This document shows, one piece after another, positions 9,487 through 24,233 of a DNA stretch of 34,700 bases (position 1 is its first letter; every line of letters begins with the position of its first letter). The notes beneath the pieces are model-generated. The model ran no database searches and was not told the DNA's origin. It saw only the letters and a program-made list of their open reading frames with translations. The position numbers and the translations under genes were made by a program. Location of the stretch: contig DAOUUU010000010.1 of assembly GCA_030667985.1 (NCBI GenBank), positions 1-34,700 on the forward strand, given 5' to 3'. Source of the DNA: Candidatus Krumholzibacteriota bacterium. Its GTDB lineage: Bacteria > Krumholzibacteriota > Krumholzibacteriia > Krumholzibacteriales > Krumholzibacteriaceae.

Positions 9487-9562
9487 GGGAGCTTAACTCA
9501 GTGGTTAGAGTGCTACCTTCACACGGTAGAAGTCACAGGTTCAAATCCTGTAGCTCCCACCA
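9487..9562 (+). tRNA. tRNA-Val (anticodon CAC), CCA encoded
   Basis: Folds as a complete 76-nt cloverleaf. The acceptor stem GGGAGCT pairs with AGCTCCC. The D stem ACTC pairs with GAGT. The anticodon stem CTACC/GGTAG presents loop TTCACAC with anticodon CAC at positions 34-36 (reads GUG, valine). The T stem ACAGG/CCTGT carries the TTCAAAT loop. The discriminator is A and the terminal CCA is encoded. The last bases are duplicated about 3.1 kb downstream, marking this gene as an integration target. Confidence 0.97.
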
Positions 9563-9635: not shown

Positions 9636-9974
9636 TCATTCCGAGTAATTCTCCAAGGCTTCTATGGCGGCTCTTTTCCGCTCCCTGCTCGTATGCAGAT
9701 ACCGCGTTACCATCTCTAGCTTGCTCCAACCGCCTAGTTCCATGAGCGTGTAAGGATCGACTCCGCACTCTACTAGGCGTGTTGCCCAGGCGTGTCTGAT
9801 ATCGTGGAACCGCCAGGGTTCTACTTTGGCGTAGGCCTTCTTCCATCTGTAAAATGATGATCTGGGCACATTAAAATCACGGCAAGCTTCTTTGACGTTC
9901 CCGATGCCTTGAGCGTACTGCAGAATCGCTGCTTTTCGGCGAACAGCTGAGGCGTCACGTACTTCACTATTCAT
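9636..9974 (-). pseudogene. Chimeric remnant: transposase-type HTH fused to C-terminal half of a tyrosine recombinase
   Basis: A 112-residue open frame built from two unrelated parts. Residues about 10-50 (RRKAAILQYAQGIG, then VKEACRDFNVPRSSFYRWKKAY) look like the N-terminal helix-turn-helix of an IS481/IS3-type transposase. From about residue 55 the text is the end of a tyrosine recombinase catalytic domain: the Arg-II box FHDIRHAWATRL, GGW at the His/Trp position, and the nucleophile in TRYLHTS. The first catalytic arginine, the lysine and the core-binding domain are absent, so it cannot recombine alone. The junction lies near KVEPWRF. The frame is intact and a GGAGGAGG site precedes the ATG, so a small protein could still be made. 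It lies 73 bp from tRNA-Val, as expected for an island integrase. Confidence 0.75.
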
Positions 9975-17846: not shown

Positions 17847-18602
17847 TTACAGTCCCGTCGGGATATCGATGAATCTCGAAGCGAGTCCGAACTCTCTCTC
17901 GAGGAGCGTGCCAAGCGATTTCACGCCTAGTGTTTCTGTGGCGTAATGTCCGGCGCATACGAGGTTGATCTTCGCCTCGCGCGCGGTGTGGTAGACGGAA
18001 TGTGCCGGTTCCCCCGTCAGAAGTGTGTCACAGCCCGTCTCTTTCGCCTGCTGAACAAGCATCGAGCCGCCACCGGAGACGATGCCCAGTCTTTTCGTTT
18101 CAGAAGGACCGAATGGGAATATCTTCGATGAACCACCGAGCTTCTTCGTAAGGCGGGCGGATAGGGCCCGCAGGGTCAACCGCTTCGGCAGCGTACCATT
18201 GAGCCCGATCTTTATGCCGCGGTAGATGCCAAATGGCTCGGGGTTCTCGAGTTCGAGGAGGCGGGCGAGCCCGATGTTGTTACCGATCTCTTCGTGACAG
18301 TCGAGAGGGAGGTGCGCCGCGTATAGAGAGACACACTTCGAGAACAGGAGCCCGATACGTTTTCCCATCACTCCGGCCAGGGGAACAGGTTCTCCCCAGA
18401 ATAGTCCGTGATGAACGATCAGGAGCTCCGCGCCGCAGGAGGAGGCCCTTGTGACGGATTCTCTGCAGGCGTCGACGGCTGTAGAGACTTTCGTTATGTT
18501 TTTCGAACATTCCACCTGTAGGCCGTTCATAGCCGAATCCGAAGCGAAATCATCCGTACGCAGCGTCGTATCGAGGTATTGAACGATCCGGTCGAGTCTC
18601 AT
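17847..18602 (-). CDS. Nif3-like dinuclear metal centre protein
   Basis: A 251-residue member of the Nif3/YbgI (DUF34) family, ring-forming proteins with a dinuclear metal site; some have been tied to GTP cyclohydrolase-type activity, but the cellular role is unsettled. Visible signatures are DSAMNGLQVE near the N-terminus, LLIVHHGLFWG (metal-binding HH), SLYAAHLPLDCHEEIGNN, GIVSGGGSML, LLTGEPAHSVYHTARE and the C-terminal CAGHYATETLGVKSL metal motif. I chose the ATG at 18602 because GAAGAGAG is properly spaced for it; a GTG nine bases upstream would touch that site. It is the third gene of the operon headed by the sigma-54 activator, 63 bp after the UGA-containing metallophosphatase gene. Confidence 0.9.
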   Translation of the reverse strand: MRLDRIVQYLDTTLRTDDFASDSAMNGLQVECSKNITKVSTAVDACRESVTRASSCGAELLIVHHGLFWGEPVPLAGVMGKRIGLLFSKCVSLYAAHLPLDCHEEIGNNIGLARLLELENPEPFGIYRGIKIGLNGTLPKRLTLRALSARLTKKLGGSSKIFPFGPSETKRLGIVSGGGSMLVQQAKETGCDTLLTGEPAHSVYHTAREAKINLVCAGHYATETLGVKSLGTLLEREFGLASRFIDIPTGL

Positions 18603-18665
18603 GATAAACACTCTCTCTTCTGGTTTGGGCGTCGAGGGACGAGAGCTCCCGTCCGCTGCCGGCCT

Positions 18666-19694
18666 CTAGTGTTTCTCCTTGACAGGCTTGGCCCTTGATG
18701 TTGATTTGTATTCCTGTTCTATTCTTTTGAATTCAGGATGATCGGTCAACTCGAGGAGCTCGGAGCCCCTGTCGACAGCCGTCATTTCCCATTGGCCGTC
18801 GATTCGATCCACAAGGATCTCCGTAAAAGATGTCTTTGTTTCGCCCGGTCCGACGAGCAATGTGCTGCCGTGCATTTCTGAGTGGGTTTTGGCGTTGATC
18901 CTGTGGCTCGATATGACAAGGTCGATACCGGGCACTTTCCCGGCGAGCTGCAAGCTCCGGTCCCACAACTGATGACTCAGAGCGATCACTATATCGCACC
19001 CCTTCTCCCTGAGCTCGGAGGCCGCGCGAAGCGCCGCCATCTGCGGGTTCTCTATCTCGTAATAGTCCCTTGTGAGCCGGTCCGCCGAATAGACCAGGGT
19101 AGGTTGAACGACGCTGAAGATACCGACCTTCAATGCGCCGATGCGTGTGAAGAGCAGGTTGGTGCCCCCGATCTCTTTTATCACATAGGGCGTTGTGAGA
19201 GGCTCCTGTGATCTCTTTTCGACGATGTTCGCCGCTACCAGCTCGAGGCGGCTGTGTCTCGCCGTTTCGAGCAGGCGTTTCTTCCCGAAGAGGATCTCGT
19301 TTTCCCCAACCGCCAGGGCGTCGTAACGAAGCAGCTTCATCGCCTCGAAGAAGAAGCGGTCCTGGACATCCTGGTTTTTCACGCGCCTACTGGCGCAGAA
19401 ATTACCCGTGTCGACGAGCACGACCGGCCGTTCGTCACGTCTCTGTTCGATCAGGGTAGCCCACCTGGCCATCCCGGACTGCGTTTCGCTATTTCACCCG
19501 CACGGCTCTCTGTATCCGCTCAGCTCATTTGTCAGGAAGATACTGAGTGATACAGGATCCTTCCGGCCGCTCTCCGGGTTATCCGACCGGGCGATGTAGA
19601 TCTTGAGAGGGATGTAGACGGCAAGGAGCACTACAAAAAGGATAAAGGCCCACCGGATGAAGGGATAGGTCTTTCTACTTGTTGTTTTTCTCAT
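18666..19694 (-). CDS. Membrane-anchored 5'-nucleotidase/metallophosphatase-fold protein, predicted selenoprotein (UGA = Sec67)
   Basis: Read through one in-frame TGA (19494-19496), this is a 342-residue protein. Residues 12-33 form a membrane anchor. The metallophosphatase fold starts at VSLSIFLTNELSGYREPCG, followed by UGA, NSETQSGMARWATLI, VVLVDTGNF, LAVGENEILFG, IVIALSHQLWD and DLVISSHRI. The two halves are in the same frame with no indel. I recall relatives reading EPCGC...GGxARRATLI, so the UGA occupies the second cysteine, giving C65-G66-U67. A SECIS-like hairpin lies 19-40 nt after the UGA. Several metal-ligand positions are altered (TNDLHG to TNELSG, GNHE to GENE), hinting at a redox rather than phosphatase role. 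The start overlaps the preceding activator gene by 20 bp. The alternatives are a nonsense mutation or restart at the ATG at 19472, which lacks a ribosome site and would lose the anchor. Confidence 0.75.
19454..19475 (-). promoter_or_regulatory. Candidate bacterial SECIS element
   Basis: Minus-strand RNA 19-40 nt downstream of the UGA folds as GGG-(A)-UGGCC, loop AGGUG, GGCUA-CCC: eight base pairs (one G-U) with a single bulged A. After a C-U mismatch the stem can extend by about three more pairs. The GGU in the apical loop and its 29-31 nt distance from the UGA resemble SelB-binding hairpins such as that of E. coli fdhF (loop AGGUCU). It lies inside the coding sequence, as bacterial SECIS elements do. 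Confidence 0.65.
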
Positions 19695-22600
19695 TATACA
19701 TTCTCAGCCATTTGTAGACTGTAGGTTTCGAGACTTGGAGGATCCTGGCCGTTTCCTGCGCGCTTTCAGTCCGTTCGTGCACCTGATGGGCTATCTCGTA
19801 CTGGAGCAGCTGCATGCTCGGTTCCATGTTGGTGGACTTGATCGTGTCGAGCAGGTTTTCTACGGCGTCCTCCAGGGTCGGGCTCAGCGGCGGCGTCTCG
19901 GCCAGTGGGCGGCTCAGGATGTTATCGGGCAGATCCTCCACGAGGATCGTATCTCTCTTCGACGTGATGACGAGCCGCGTTATGATATTCTCCAGCTCCC
20001 TGACGTTGCCCGGCCAATCGTATTCGAAGAAATAGGCGAGTGCCGCCTGCGCGATCGTCTTGAGGGGAATATTGTAGATGTTGCAGTAGGTCGCAAGGAA
20101 ATGGTTGCAGAGCGGCTCGATGTCATCTTTGCGGTCCCTGAGTGTAGGAATCCTTATGGGAAATATGTTCAAGCGGTGGTAGAGGTCTATGCGGAACTGT
20201 TTCTTCTTGATGAGTTCGAGGAGGTCGACGTTGGTCGCGGCTATTATCCTGGCGTTGGTGGTGATCTCCTTTCGGCCGCCGACCCGGTAGAATTTCTGTT
20301 CTTCGAGGACCCGGAGAAGTGTCGGCTGCAAACTGATTGGAAGATCGCGGATCTCGTTCAGGAAGATCGTGCCGTCGCGCGCCGACTCGAAATGGCCGAT
20401 TCGCTGACGATGCGCCCCCGTGAACGAGCCCTTCTCGTGACCGAACAATTCGCTCTCGATGAGTTCGCGCGGGATGGTCGCGCAGTTCAAAGAGACGAAG
20501 GGCTTGTCCCGCCTGTGGCTGTTGTAGTGTATCGCCTTGGCGAACAGATCCTTGCCGGTACCATTTTCCCCGATCAACAGGACGGACATGTCCATGTCCT
20601 TGATGTCGTTTATCAGCTTGAAGATGTGCTTGATTGCGGGTGAGGACCCCACGATTTCCTTGAAGGTGTTTCGTCCCTTTGTTTTTACGCCGGAGGGCCT
20701 TATCGGCTTGGTCCTCTCGATGCTCTTGATCTTTCGAGACAGGAGGATATTTTCGAGTCCCAGGGCGACCTGTTGGCTGAAGGCGATGAGGAAGCTGTGG
20801 TTCTCCTCGTTCGTGCCAGCGTTTTTCCTGGTGGAGTCGAGGTATAGGAATCCGGTCACCTCGTCCTCTATCCAGAGCGGGATACAGATTATGCTCGGAT
20901 GCTCCTTTAAAAATGCTTCGCTCACCTTGTCGCAAGGGAGGGAGACGCTGGAGGCGTCGAGAGGATATCCGAGCTGTTTTGCGATGTCGAGCAGGGCCGA
21001 AACATTCTTGTCCGGCAATATTTGCTGTTTCGATGAAACGCCGCTTGCCGCCAGGATCCTGTAGGATTCAGCCTCCTCTCCCTGCAGGATCAGCGCGGCG
21101 CGTTTCATGCCGGTGATCTTCATGACGGTCTCGGCTATCAGGCTGTAGAGTTTTTCAGGATCGTGGATTGTTCTGATGATCGATGTCAGCCTGCAGAGCA
21201 CCTGGAACCTGTCGGAATCCGACTTGATCTGTTCTAGAGATTTCGCCGATTCGGTGTCGAGTGCGTCGATAAGGGTCTGCACGTTACGTGGAATGTTTTC
21301 TGAATCTCCGAGAAGCGATATGGCTCTTAGCAGGTATTCCCTCGCGAGCGGTTCATTCCCTTCCTCGAGGTAGAGGCGTCCGATCTCCGCAGCGGTTAAT
21401 ACGGCGGTGGTCTTTCTGCCGAGAAGCGAGAGCTCGAGGTTCACTCCTTCGAGCAGCCTCTTGCCCTGCTCTCTCTTGCCTTCGGCGAGCAGCAACCTCG
21501 CTTCGAGGATATTGATCAGGCACGCTTCGAGGCGCGAACCGATGATCTTGTTGAGAGAGTTCGCCTGTTCGAGCAGTTTGCGTGACTCCTCGTGATTTCC
21601 TTCCTTCAGGGCAAGCTCGCATAGCCTGCGGAAAACGACCGCTTTCTCCCTCTGGGATTTTGTCTTTTGACAGATGTGTAGATCCTTGTAGAAGTAATCG
21701 CGCGCGGAGTTTAACCTTCCTTTTAAAAAATTGATATCCCCCAGAGTGCCGTATGCCTCGGCAAGCAGCTGCTGATTGCCTATATCCTCGGCGAGCCTGG
21801 TGGCAGTAAGACAGGATTTCTCCGCCTCGTCAAGTTGCTCGAGGTCGAGGTAGACGAGGGCTATGTTGAGATGCGCCGCCGCGAGGCCGGGAAGGTTGCT
21901 GTGGCGCTTCTTGATCTCCATGCTCTTCTTGAAGCATCCGAGGGCGTCGTTCAACTTGCCCATCGAGAGATATACGAGCCCGAGGTTGTTATGGCTGGTC
22001 GAGATCCCGATTTCCTCGTTGCAGCGTTCTCGGAGCGTGAGACATTTCCGGTGGCAGGTGACGGCGTCTTCGTACTGGCTCCTGTTCCAGTTGATCGTTC
22101 CCATCAGGTTGTATGTCTGGGCGATCTCGAGCGGGTATTTTTTCTCGTCGAGGAGTTTGTGTACAAGCAGGCAGTTTTCGTGAGACTTGTCGAATAGGCC
22201 GAGCCGGTAATGGACCCAGGAGAGATCGTTATACAATTTCGCCCGCTGATTCGAAAGAAGATGCTCCCCATGTGTGTCGAGGGTTCTCTCGAGAAGCCTC
22301 TCCGCCTTCATGAATTCCCCGCGCTTCTCAAGGATCTCGCATTCCTTCCGCACCGCTTCGACGGCGAGGCTCCGAAATTCAGCCGCCATCTTTTTCGAGG
22401 AGATGTCCTCACGGCACCTTCGATAGAATTGCTCGGCCCGCGCAATATTGCCGATCAGCGAGAAGTAGTTGCCGAGTTCGAGCAGCAGATTGAAGCGGGT
22501 TTCGGCCGGTAGGTGACGGTCGAGTTTTTCATGCAGGTAGCTTTCGTTGAAACAGTTGATCGCACTCAGGTTTTCCCGCTCCAGCATGGATTTGAAGAGT

Positions 22601-24222
22601 TGATAACCCTTGACGGCGGCCAGTTCCTTTTCACCTGCCTGTGCGAGATGATGGAAGATATAGAGTGTCGGGGCGTTCTCGATCTCATCGAGGATGAGCG
22701 TGATGTTTCTGTGGATCTGTTCCCTGCGCTTCTTGGGAATCTTCTTGAGGACATGTTCGGCCAGGGTCCTGCCGCTGAGTTTGTACAGCAGGCAGACTTC
22801 ACCGTCAGAGAGAATGGAATCCTCCGACCTTGCCTCGACAAGCCCCTGCGCTCGCAACCTCATGATCGATTCGTACATGCCGTTTCCTGAAGTGGGAAAG
22901 ACGTTCTGCAGGATCTTCAGGGGCATTTCGAACTTGAAGACCGCCATGAAGTTGAGTATAGAACGGTCCTCGTCCGTGAGGGAAGAGAGTGGTCCGGAGA
23001 ATCGCTTTCCCAGGTTCTCTGCGGCCTTTCCCTTTTCCTGGCGGCTGAGCGGCGCCAGCGGGATGTGAGTGATCGGGACGCTTTTTCTGCTGCATTCATC
23101 CGTCAAGGAGGAGACATAGTAGTCGGGAGATTTGTTGTTTACGACAATGACGCTTAACGGGCAGCTCGTCAGGCTTCGGCAGAGTCTATCGATGATGTGG
23201 CAGCTGACAAGCGGCTCCTGGGAGTGATCGTCGATGACGACGAATCCATGGCCGTCGTCGAACGAGTCAGGTCCCATATCCTGAAAGAGGTTCTGATCGC
23301 TAAGGATCGCCCCATGCTCGAAACCCCAATCCTCTGTGAGGCGTTCCGCAGCTTCCCGGACGAACCGGCTCTTTCCCTCTCCGCAGTCCCCCTTGAGTAT
23401 CACGAGTTGATTTTTGCCGCCTGCCGCCTTTTCGGCCGCCTTCTTCATCAGTCCCATGGCCGTCTTGGGCATTATAAATGGAGGGATCATGCCGGGTGGA
23501 ACGAACGGCTCCTGATGTTCGAGGCCGGCAAAGGTGAGGAGGTCATCAAACAGGTCTGAACAGCTCTTCCTGGTCATGTCACAGGAGAAGGAGTGGAGTC
23601 GTTTGGAGAGCGAGCGCCCTTGTTTCGCGGCTTTATCGGGCATATAGAGCACGAATGTATCGAGCAGGCGCCCGATACTCTCGAGATCCCGGCACAAAGC
23701 CGCATCGAGACCGCCGAAAGATATCGGTTCCCCTTTCAGGTGAGCAAGGATTTCGAAAGGCAGCAGGTATGCGGTGGGGAGCACCTTGAGGTCCTTGCCG
23801 GCGAGAACGATCGCTTCGGGGGCGAGGTTGCCGAAATAATATCCCTTCTCGAGGAGGGGGAGAATCGCCGCGAACAGTTCGGCCATTGTTTCTCTGACCT
23901 TCGCCGTTTCAATCGAAGGGAGCGCCTTTGTCAACGGCACGAAGTTTGTATAGGGAAGCAGAAATGATACGCTGTTGTTTGTCTTCTGGAGCGAGAGGGT
24001 GGACGGGAATATTTCGCCTGAAAAGAGCGCCTTCCTCATCTCGAGATCGGCGAGGGAGAGCGATATCCTTTCCTCGGAATTAAGAGAGAACCGGAAAAAG
24101 CTCTTTTCGCTGAGAGAGTCAGTGACGCCATGCCCCCGCCAGGGAGGATAGTTGCCGAGGACCTTCTTGGTGATGTACCGGGAGGCAATACCCTTATCAT
24201 AATTTTCACGGTTCATCTGCAT
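19675..24222 (-). CDS. Giant sigma-54 activator: kinase-like, STAND-type ATPase, TPR, GAF, AAA+ and Fis-type HTH
   Basis: A 1515-residue regulator combining several signalling modules. Residues about 1-225 look like a degenerate protein-kinase fold without clear HRD or DFG. A P-loop GDCGEGKSR (about 276-284) opens a STAND-like ATPase domain. TPR repeats span about 570-990, a GAF domain about 1005-1165. The sigma-54 AAA+ domain follows: Walker A GENGTGKD (about 1219), the sigma-54-contacting loop GSFTGA (about 1265), FRIDLYHRLNIFPI, and a C-terminal Fis-type HTH (ETARILQVSKPTVYKWLRMY). Walker B reads IFLNEI, with Asn for the usual Asp. No receiver domain is present, so input is probably protein or ligand binding to the TPR/GAF parts. 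The ATG at 24222 or 24216 lacks a clear ribosome site. It heads the operon containing the predicted selenoprotein and nif3. Confidence 0.9.
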   Translation of the reverse strand: MQMNRENYDKGIASRYITKKVLGNYPPWRGHGVTDSLSEKSFFRFSLNSEERISLSLADLEMRKALFSGEIFPSTLSLQKTNNSVSFLLPYTNFVPLTKALPSIETAKVRETMAELFAAILPLLEKGYYFGNLAPEAIVLAGKDLKVLPTAYLLPFEILAHLKGEPISFGGLDAALCRDLESIGRLLDTFVLYMPDKAAKQGRSLSKRLHSFSCDMTRKSCSDLFDDLLTFAGLEHQEPFVPPGMIPPFIMPKTAMGLMKKAAEKAAGGKNQLVILKGDCGEGKSRFVREAAERLTEDWGFEHGAILSDQNLFQDMGPDSFDDGHGFVVIDDHSQEPLVSCHIIDRLCRSLTSCPLSVIVVNNKSPDYYVSSLTDECSRKSVPITHIPLAPLSRQEKGKAAENLGKRFSGPLSSLTDEDRSILNFMAVFKFEMPLKILQNVFPTSGNGMYESIMRLRAQGLVEARSEDSILSDGEVCLLYKLSGRTLAEHVLKKIPKKRREQIHRNITLILDEIENAPTLYIFHHLAQAGEKELAAVKGYQLFKSMLERENLSAINCFNESYLHEKLDRHLPAETRFNLLLELGNYFSLIGNIARAEQFYRRCREDISSKKMAAEFRSLAVEAVRKECEILEKRGEFMKAERLLERTLDTHGEHLLSNQRAKLYNDLSWVHYRLGLFDKSHENCLLVHKLLDEKKYPLEIAQTYNLMGTINWNRSQYEDAVTCHRKCLTLRERCNEEIGISTSHNNLGLVYLSMGKLNDALGCFKKSMEIKKRHSNLPGLAAAHLNIALVYLDLEQLDEAEKSCLTATRLAEDIGNQQLLAEAYGTLGDINFLKGRLNSARDYFYKDLHICQKTKSQREKAVVFRRLCELALKEGNHEESRKLLEQANSLNKIIGSRLEACLINILEARLLLAEGKREQGKRLLEGVNLELSLLGRKTTAVLTAAEIGRLYLEEGNEPLAREYLLRAISLLGDSENIPRNVQTLIDALDTESAKSLEQIKSDSDRFQVLCRLTSIIRTIHDPEKLYSLIAETVMKITGMKRAALILQGEEAESYRILAASGVSSKQQILPDKNVSALLDIAKQLGYPLDASSVSLPCDKVSEAFLKEHPSIICIPLWIEDEVTGFLYLDSTRKNAGTNEENHSFLIAFSQQVALGLENILLSRKIKSIERTKPIRPSGVKTKGRNTFKEIVGSSPAIKHIFKLINDIKDMDMSVLLIGENGTGKDLFAKAIHYNSHRRDKPFVSLNCATIPRELIESELFGHEKGSFTGAHRQRIGHFESARDGTIFLNEIRDLPISLQPTLLRVLEEQKFYRVGGRKEITTNARIIAATNVDLLELIKKKQFRIDLYHRLNIFPIRIPTLRDRKDDIEPLCNHFLATYCNIYNIPLKTIAQAALAYFFEYDWPGNVRELENIITRLVITSKRDTILVEDLPDNILSRPLAETPPLSPTLEDAVENLLDTIKSTNMEPSMQLLQYEIAHQVHERTESAQETARILQVSKPTVYKWLRMYNEKNNK

Positions 24223-24233
24223 CAACGATCGTT

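Follow-up and report, generated by a model that had tools for sequence, protein, structure and literature searches.

A predicted membrane-anchored, haem-free form of UshA-like selenoprotein in the Krumholzibacteriaceae

The locus and its in-frame TGA

The window analyzed here is a stretch of 34,700 nucleotides from a genome of a Candidatus Krumholzibacteriota bacterium (contig DAOUUU010000010.1). A minus-strand reading frame within it is open except for a single TGA at codon 67 and encodes, if this codon is read through, a metallophosphatase-like protein (Table 1). The original prediction had described two same-frame minus-strand open reading frames (ORFs) split by one TGA that directly follows REPCG, and the sequence agrees with this description. 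The read-through sequence around codon 67 is LSGYREPCG-U-NSETQSGMARWATLIEQ, and the part 3' of the TGA, taken alone, is listed as a 268-amino-acid ORF (18666-19472). Residues 12 to 37 form a predicted helix in a low-confidence structure model, and from their hydrophobicity we read them as a putative membrane anchor.

Table 1. Features of the selenoprotein locus (window coordinates)
Feature	Position	Strand	Remarks
DUF34/NIF3 gene	17847..18611	-	Downstream neighbour in 12/14 loci
Selenoprotein gene (subfamily A)	18666..19694	-	Putative membrane anchor and UshA-type metallophosphatase-like domain; 342 residues with U67
SECIS-like hairpin	19454..19475	-	Bases 22-43 from the T of TGA; inside the coding sequence for SGMARWATL
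In-frame TGA, codon 67	19494..19496	-	Motif P64-C65-G66-U67; TGA in the window gene and 16/16 orthologues
Sigma-54-type activator gene (AAA_16, TPR, GAF, Sigma54_activat, HTH)	19675..24225	-	1516 residues; neighbour in 14/14 loci

The names of the tabulated window ORFs are our own labels, save where Pfam was run. Gene order was compared across 14 loci, 11 of the family and 3 of a sister family. The last 20 bases of the activator gene in the window genome also form the start of the selenoprotein gene, and the DUF34/NIF3 gene is not adjacent in G001 and G018, both of one genus. Elsewhere in the window, a tRNA (9487-9559, plus strand) is followed by a 112-amino-acid ORF (9636-9974, minus strand) that joins a helix-turn-helix/transposase-like start to a phage integrase end; together, these resemble a mobile-element remnant.

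Evidence for selenocysteine at codon 67

When 80 genomes of the class, the same set that a phylum-level search returned, were searched with a profile, 17 members scoring at least 445.8 bits stood apart from everything else, at no more than 171 bits; the distribution given here refers to the class. This group, here called subfamily A, consists of the window gene plus 16 orthologues. Of the 20 genomes in the family, 17 carry a member; the other three (G002, G016, and G019) are 75, 82, and 67% complete, respectively. A scan of named genomes returned one relative only, L039, which is apparently the same gene as L019 (their first 80 residues are identical) and was excluded from the orthologue count. 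Matches to the read-through protein were found in 57 of 58 relatives.

In the alignment, the residue 67 column holds TGA in all 17 rows of subfamily A, and the orthologues are 36 to 52% identical to the window protein. P64, C65, U67, G74, A76, R77, and W78 are invariant in the 17 rows, and at least 90% of them retain M75. In all five pairs tested, dN was lower than dS on either side of the TGA. Because the codon holds the same column in 17 sequences this divergent, with dN below dS on both sides, we do not regard the in-frame TGA as a chance occurrence. Alignment of homologues at residue 67 had been proposed as a check on the original prediction, and it gave a divided answer: UGA is present in every family orthologue recovered, whereas in the sister family the orthologues at this locus carry neither Cys nor UGA. 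Cys occupies this column in every one of the 11 rows of a Cys-bearing paralogue and in one haem-bearing relative from another family.

Since an Rfam search of positions 19300 to 19600 gave no SECIS match, the hairpin downstream of the TGA was evaluated by synonymous recoding, in which each 60-base stretch was recoded 300 times with the group's own codon frequencies. The tip of the hairpin has the sequence GGCC[A/C]GGUGGGC. The consensus hairpin of subfamily A has a free energy of −8.6 kcal/mol versus −0.18 ± 0.55 after recoding, and none of the 300 recodings was as low. The same hairpin was found in both other sets of UGA-bearing relatives: 10 haem-bearing relatives of the same order (consensus −8.9 versus −0.82 recoded; 0/300 as low) and 9 relatives from other families of the class (−10.42 versus −1.76; 0/300). 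As a control we used 11 Cys-bearing paralogues with near-identical amino acids in that stretch. Their consensus was −1.04 versus −0.09 (5/300 as low) with a different and weak fold, their mean single-sequence fold energy was ordinary (96/300 recodings as low), and the subfamily A hairpin was absent from the 11 sequences folded. When all 36 UGA-bearing sequences were taken together, 93.3% of the cells in the upper stem were paired, and the covariation score was 0.231 versus 0.098 for shuffled alignments (0/500 as high); two stem pairs have changed on both sides, a result equalled by 35 of 500 shuffles. The 17 subfamily A sequences alone contain no compensatory change, with 500 of 500 shuffles scoring as high.

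A search for selA, selB, selC, and selD in the same genome, likewise suggested at the outset, recovered all four above their cut-offs. The tRNA-Sec scored 69.8 bits (cut-off, 47) and was confirmed by ARAGORN with the anticodon tca; a second tRNA-Sec match, at 47.6 bits, lies just above the cut-off. SelA, SelB, and SelD scored 500.2, 363.1, and 364.3 bits, respectively. Among 25 genomes, SelB passed in 22, SelA in 24, and SelD in 22; among 14 control genomes, SelB passed in 2, SelA in 1, SelD in 2, and tRNA-Sec in 5. The SelD gene of the window genome (G000 C64:3452-4375) itself carries one in-frame TGA, as do the SelD genes of several relatives, and its product is probably also a selenoprotein, as is known for SelD in other bacteria.

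Were the TGA a true stop, the gene would be broken or there would be two genes, the second starting at the ATG of M75. That ATG, at 19472, does open the 268-amino-acid ORF, and M75 is retained in most rows as stated above; however, the row of L021 keeps the TGA though Ala replaces M75, and a stop would leave unexplained the TGA shared by all 17 diverged rows, the invariant P64 and C65 before it and G74, A76, R77, and W78 after it, a hairpin in excess of coding need, and the Cys that aligns at this site in relatives without TGA. We reject a broken gene and a pair of separate genes on the residue conservation and because purifying selection acts on the sequence before and after the codon, and consider them very improbable. 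A genome-wide reassignment of TGA to Trp or Gly, under which an in-frame TGA would be expected, has a negligible probability: TGA terminates 13 of the 26 tabulated window ORFs, the genome encodes tRNA-Sec, SelA, SelB, and SelD, and relatives have Cys, rather than Trp or Gly, at the aligned residue. The use of TGA as a stop is the ground on which a reassigned code is rejected, and it upholds the earlier argument that the code is standard in this respect.

The preferred reading, that the codon 67 TGA is read as selenocysteine, has in our estimate a probability of about 0.93. SelB with Sec-tRNA would decode this UGA, directed by the hairpin within the coding sequence, which starts 18 bases past the UGA.

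Relation to known UshA-like selenoproteins and Sec loss in a sister family

The proposal that a metallophosphatase-type protein carries selenocysteine in a C-G-U motif is thus strongly supported, but the accompanying statement that no selenoprotein of this type had been described was wrong. UshA-like (COG0737) CxU selenoproteins were published in 2008 and are modelled in NCBIfam. The 2008 GOS paper reports 76 of them (PMC2398784); later tables list an UshA-like family with CxU (PMC9312934; PMC13188914), and a 2026 review adds a "family 2" with CxxU. No description of the anchored form was found in the available portions of the literature searched, and a search combining Krumholzibacter with selenoprotein or selenocysteine gave nothing relevant.

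NCBIfam holds two models of UshA-like selenoproteins, NF041198 and NF049981. The nearest model to the window protein is NF041198, "UshA-like (seleno)protein," at 125.6 bits, below the cut-off of 275; the best E-value to this model among the 17 subfamily A rows is 2.4e-38. The next matches were to the SoxB thiosulfohydrolase model TIGR04486 (71 bits; cut-off, 550), followed by cyclic nucleotide phosphodiesterases, whose NCBIfam cut-offs were likewise not reached, and NF049981, the family 2 model, gave 31.8 bits (cut-off, 140). With these cut-offs missed, strict membership in NF041198, NF049981, or SoxB was rejected. Pfam gave only a sub-threshold Metallophos match. The two features of the wider COG0737 CxU group, an UshA-like domain and CxU, are both present. 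A profile of the 17 sequences matched, among solved structures, YfkN (3gve_A; E-value, 4e-23), 5'-nucleotidases, and SoxB. A structure model built from two sequences was poor (pLDDT, 55.2; pTM, 0.59), and with that weak model Foldseek recovered 5'-nucleotidases and YfkN at query TM-scores of 0.43 to 0.55, matches that we use solely to back up the profile result.

Subfamily A shares with NF041198 and the COG0737 CxU proteins the fold family, the position of CxU, the UGA codon, and the Ala-Arg after a conserved Gly. In contrast to NF041198, which has a C-terminal CxxCH haem part (model positions approximately 344 to 519) that is also present in relatives, all 17 subfamily A rows are without one; they differ further in the putative membrane anchor, in W78 where relatives have Arg, and in metal-ligand positions that are not kept. 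NF049981 is likewise UshA-like and Sec bearing, but its motif in print is CxxU, whereas that of subfamily A is CxU. In a tree, subfamily A and its motif-lost orthologues (below) grouped together with support of 100/100, apart from the other forms. L109 (G022) and L110 (G044) were left out of the tree and the residue counts; L031, L051, and L055 were omitted from the alignment of haem-bearing relatives and included in the hairpin, covariation, residue-count, and tree analyses. Judged by sequence, subfamily A is a separate clade of a known selenoprotein group, and we have high confidence that its predicted product is a real selenoprotein of a known kind in a distinct anchored, haem-free form.

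The window genome contains three paralogues: the subfamily A gene, a haem form on contig C77, and a Cys-Gly-Cys form on contig C147. The C77 paralogue is lipoprotein-like, has a TGA, and ends in a C-terminal CxxCH (Cytochrome_C554) part, and the C147 paralogue is single domain with Cys-Gly-Cys and without TGA. The Cys paralogue resembles subfamily A in its single domain and in having C-G-[C/U] at the same column but differs in its Cys in all 11 rows, without UGA or hairpin, in its separate clade, and in a start that we read as lipoprotein-like where subfamily A has an anchor. The original prediction had referred to relatives with EPCGC followed by GGxARRATLI; this was close, the actual sequences being RSCGC...GGLGRRAT in the Cys paralogue and EPCGU...GG[LV]ARRA in haem-bearing relatives.

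Two further observations concern the haem-bearing relatives. The 10 of the same order (L041, which is G000 C77, L043, L045, L047, L049, L051, L053, L055, L057, and L059) keep UGA, with the first Cys replaced by Ala in seven, Ser in two, and Phe in one; sequences such as PAGUG thus have Sec without a CxU partner. The haem-bearing L110 (G044 C23), from another family of the class, has RSCGC, with Cys instead of Sec.

In the sister family, a same-locus orthologue was found in four of five genomes (G020, G021, G022, and G024), and none was found in G023. These orthologues (L026, L027, L028, and L109) have lost C-G-U and the SGMARW that follows it and have kept the anchor. The motif-lost clade has a long stem branch (1.47) in the tree, and dN was lower than dS (0.06 and 0.17, respectively) in the one pair tested. 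The sister-family genomes still carry other UGA-bearing relatives. Retention of the gene without the motif indicates either that Sec is unnecessary for persistence of the gene or that its role has changed there.

Possible function of the Cys-Gly-Sec pair

We picture the subfamily A product as a single-domain UshA/YfkN-type protein that a single N-terminal helix would anchor in the membrane, with the domain probably on the periplasmic side. Eight positions taken as metal or catalytic residues were compared by alignment with a YfkN fragment as the reference. The YfkN residue is present at these positions in 1, 2, 10, 0, 0, 12, 8, and 0 of the 17 subfamily A rows; the first Asp is found in 1, the partner His in 2, the bridging Asp in 10, and the Asn and the catalytic His in none. 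The dinuclear metal ligands and catalytic His of an active calcineurin-like phosphoesterase are therefore not conserved in subfamily A. Among the haem-bearing and Cys relatives, the first-ligand Asp is present in 27 of 30, the two His positions are kept in 29 and 26 of 30, and Glu stands at the YfkN Asn position in 26 of 30. YfkN, 5'-nucleotidases, and SoxB, the best solved-structure matches to subfamily A, keep the metal ligands and are without a C-G-U motif at this place.

Because the metal-ligand positions drift while Pro-Cys-x-Sec is invariant, we favour C-G-U over phosphoester hydrolysis as the working centre, and put at roughly even odds that the Cys-Gly-Sec pair is the working part of the protein, acting as a thiol/selenol redox centre and not as a phosphatase. 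A redox role is plausible for the wider group because nearby relatives bear haem. Alternatively, Sec may be inserted and the protein may still be a metal-dependent phosphoesterase or SoxB-like hydrolase in which Cys and Sec replace lost ligands. The sequence matches and weak structure matches to YfkN, 5'-nucleotidases, and SoxB, together with the Asp, His, and Glu-for-Asn residues kept in the haem-bearing and Cys relatives, are in keeping with such a hydrolase, but the poor retention of the ligands in subfamily A itself and the absence of the catalytic His from all 17 rows weigh against it, and we consider it unlikely.

Returning to the redox reading, the position of the gene, behind a sigma-54-type regulator in every locus examined and overlapping it here, hints at a regulated or sensing role, which we regard as rather doubtful. 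As a tentative overall scheme, a phosphoesterase fold without its metal chemistry may have become an anchored selenol redox protein that faces the periplasm, perhaps sensing redox state together with the adjacent sigma-54-type regulator, with the Sec centre lost in the sister lineage and the gene retained.

The predicted protein extends a selenoprotein group, for which the available literature, as searched, states no biochemical role, by a distinct branch that is anchored and haem free. The branch lies far below the NF041198 cut-off and would therefore go unnamed in automatic annotation with this model. Since its metal-ligand positions drift and its C-x-U does not, the branch would be a clean probe of the Cys-Sec pair in this fold, and the loss of Sec at the same locus in the sister family, beside other UGA-bearing relatives, would provide a natural experiment in Sec loss.
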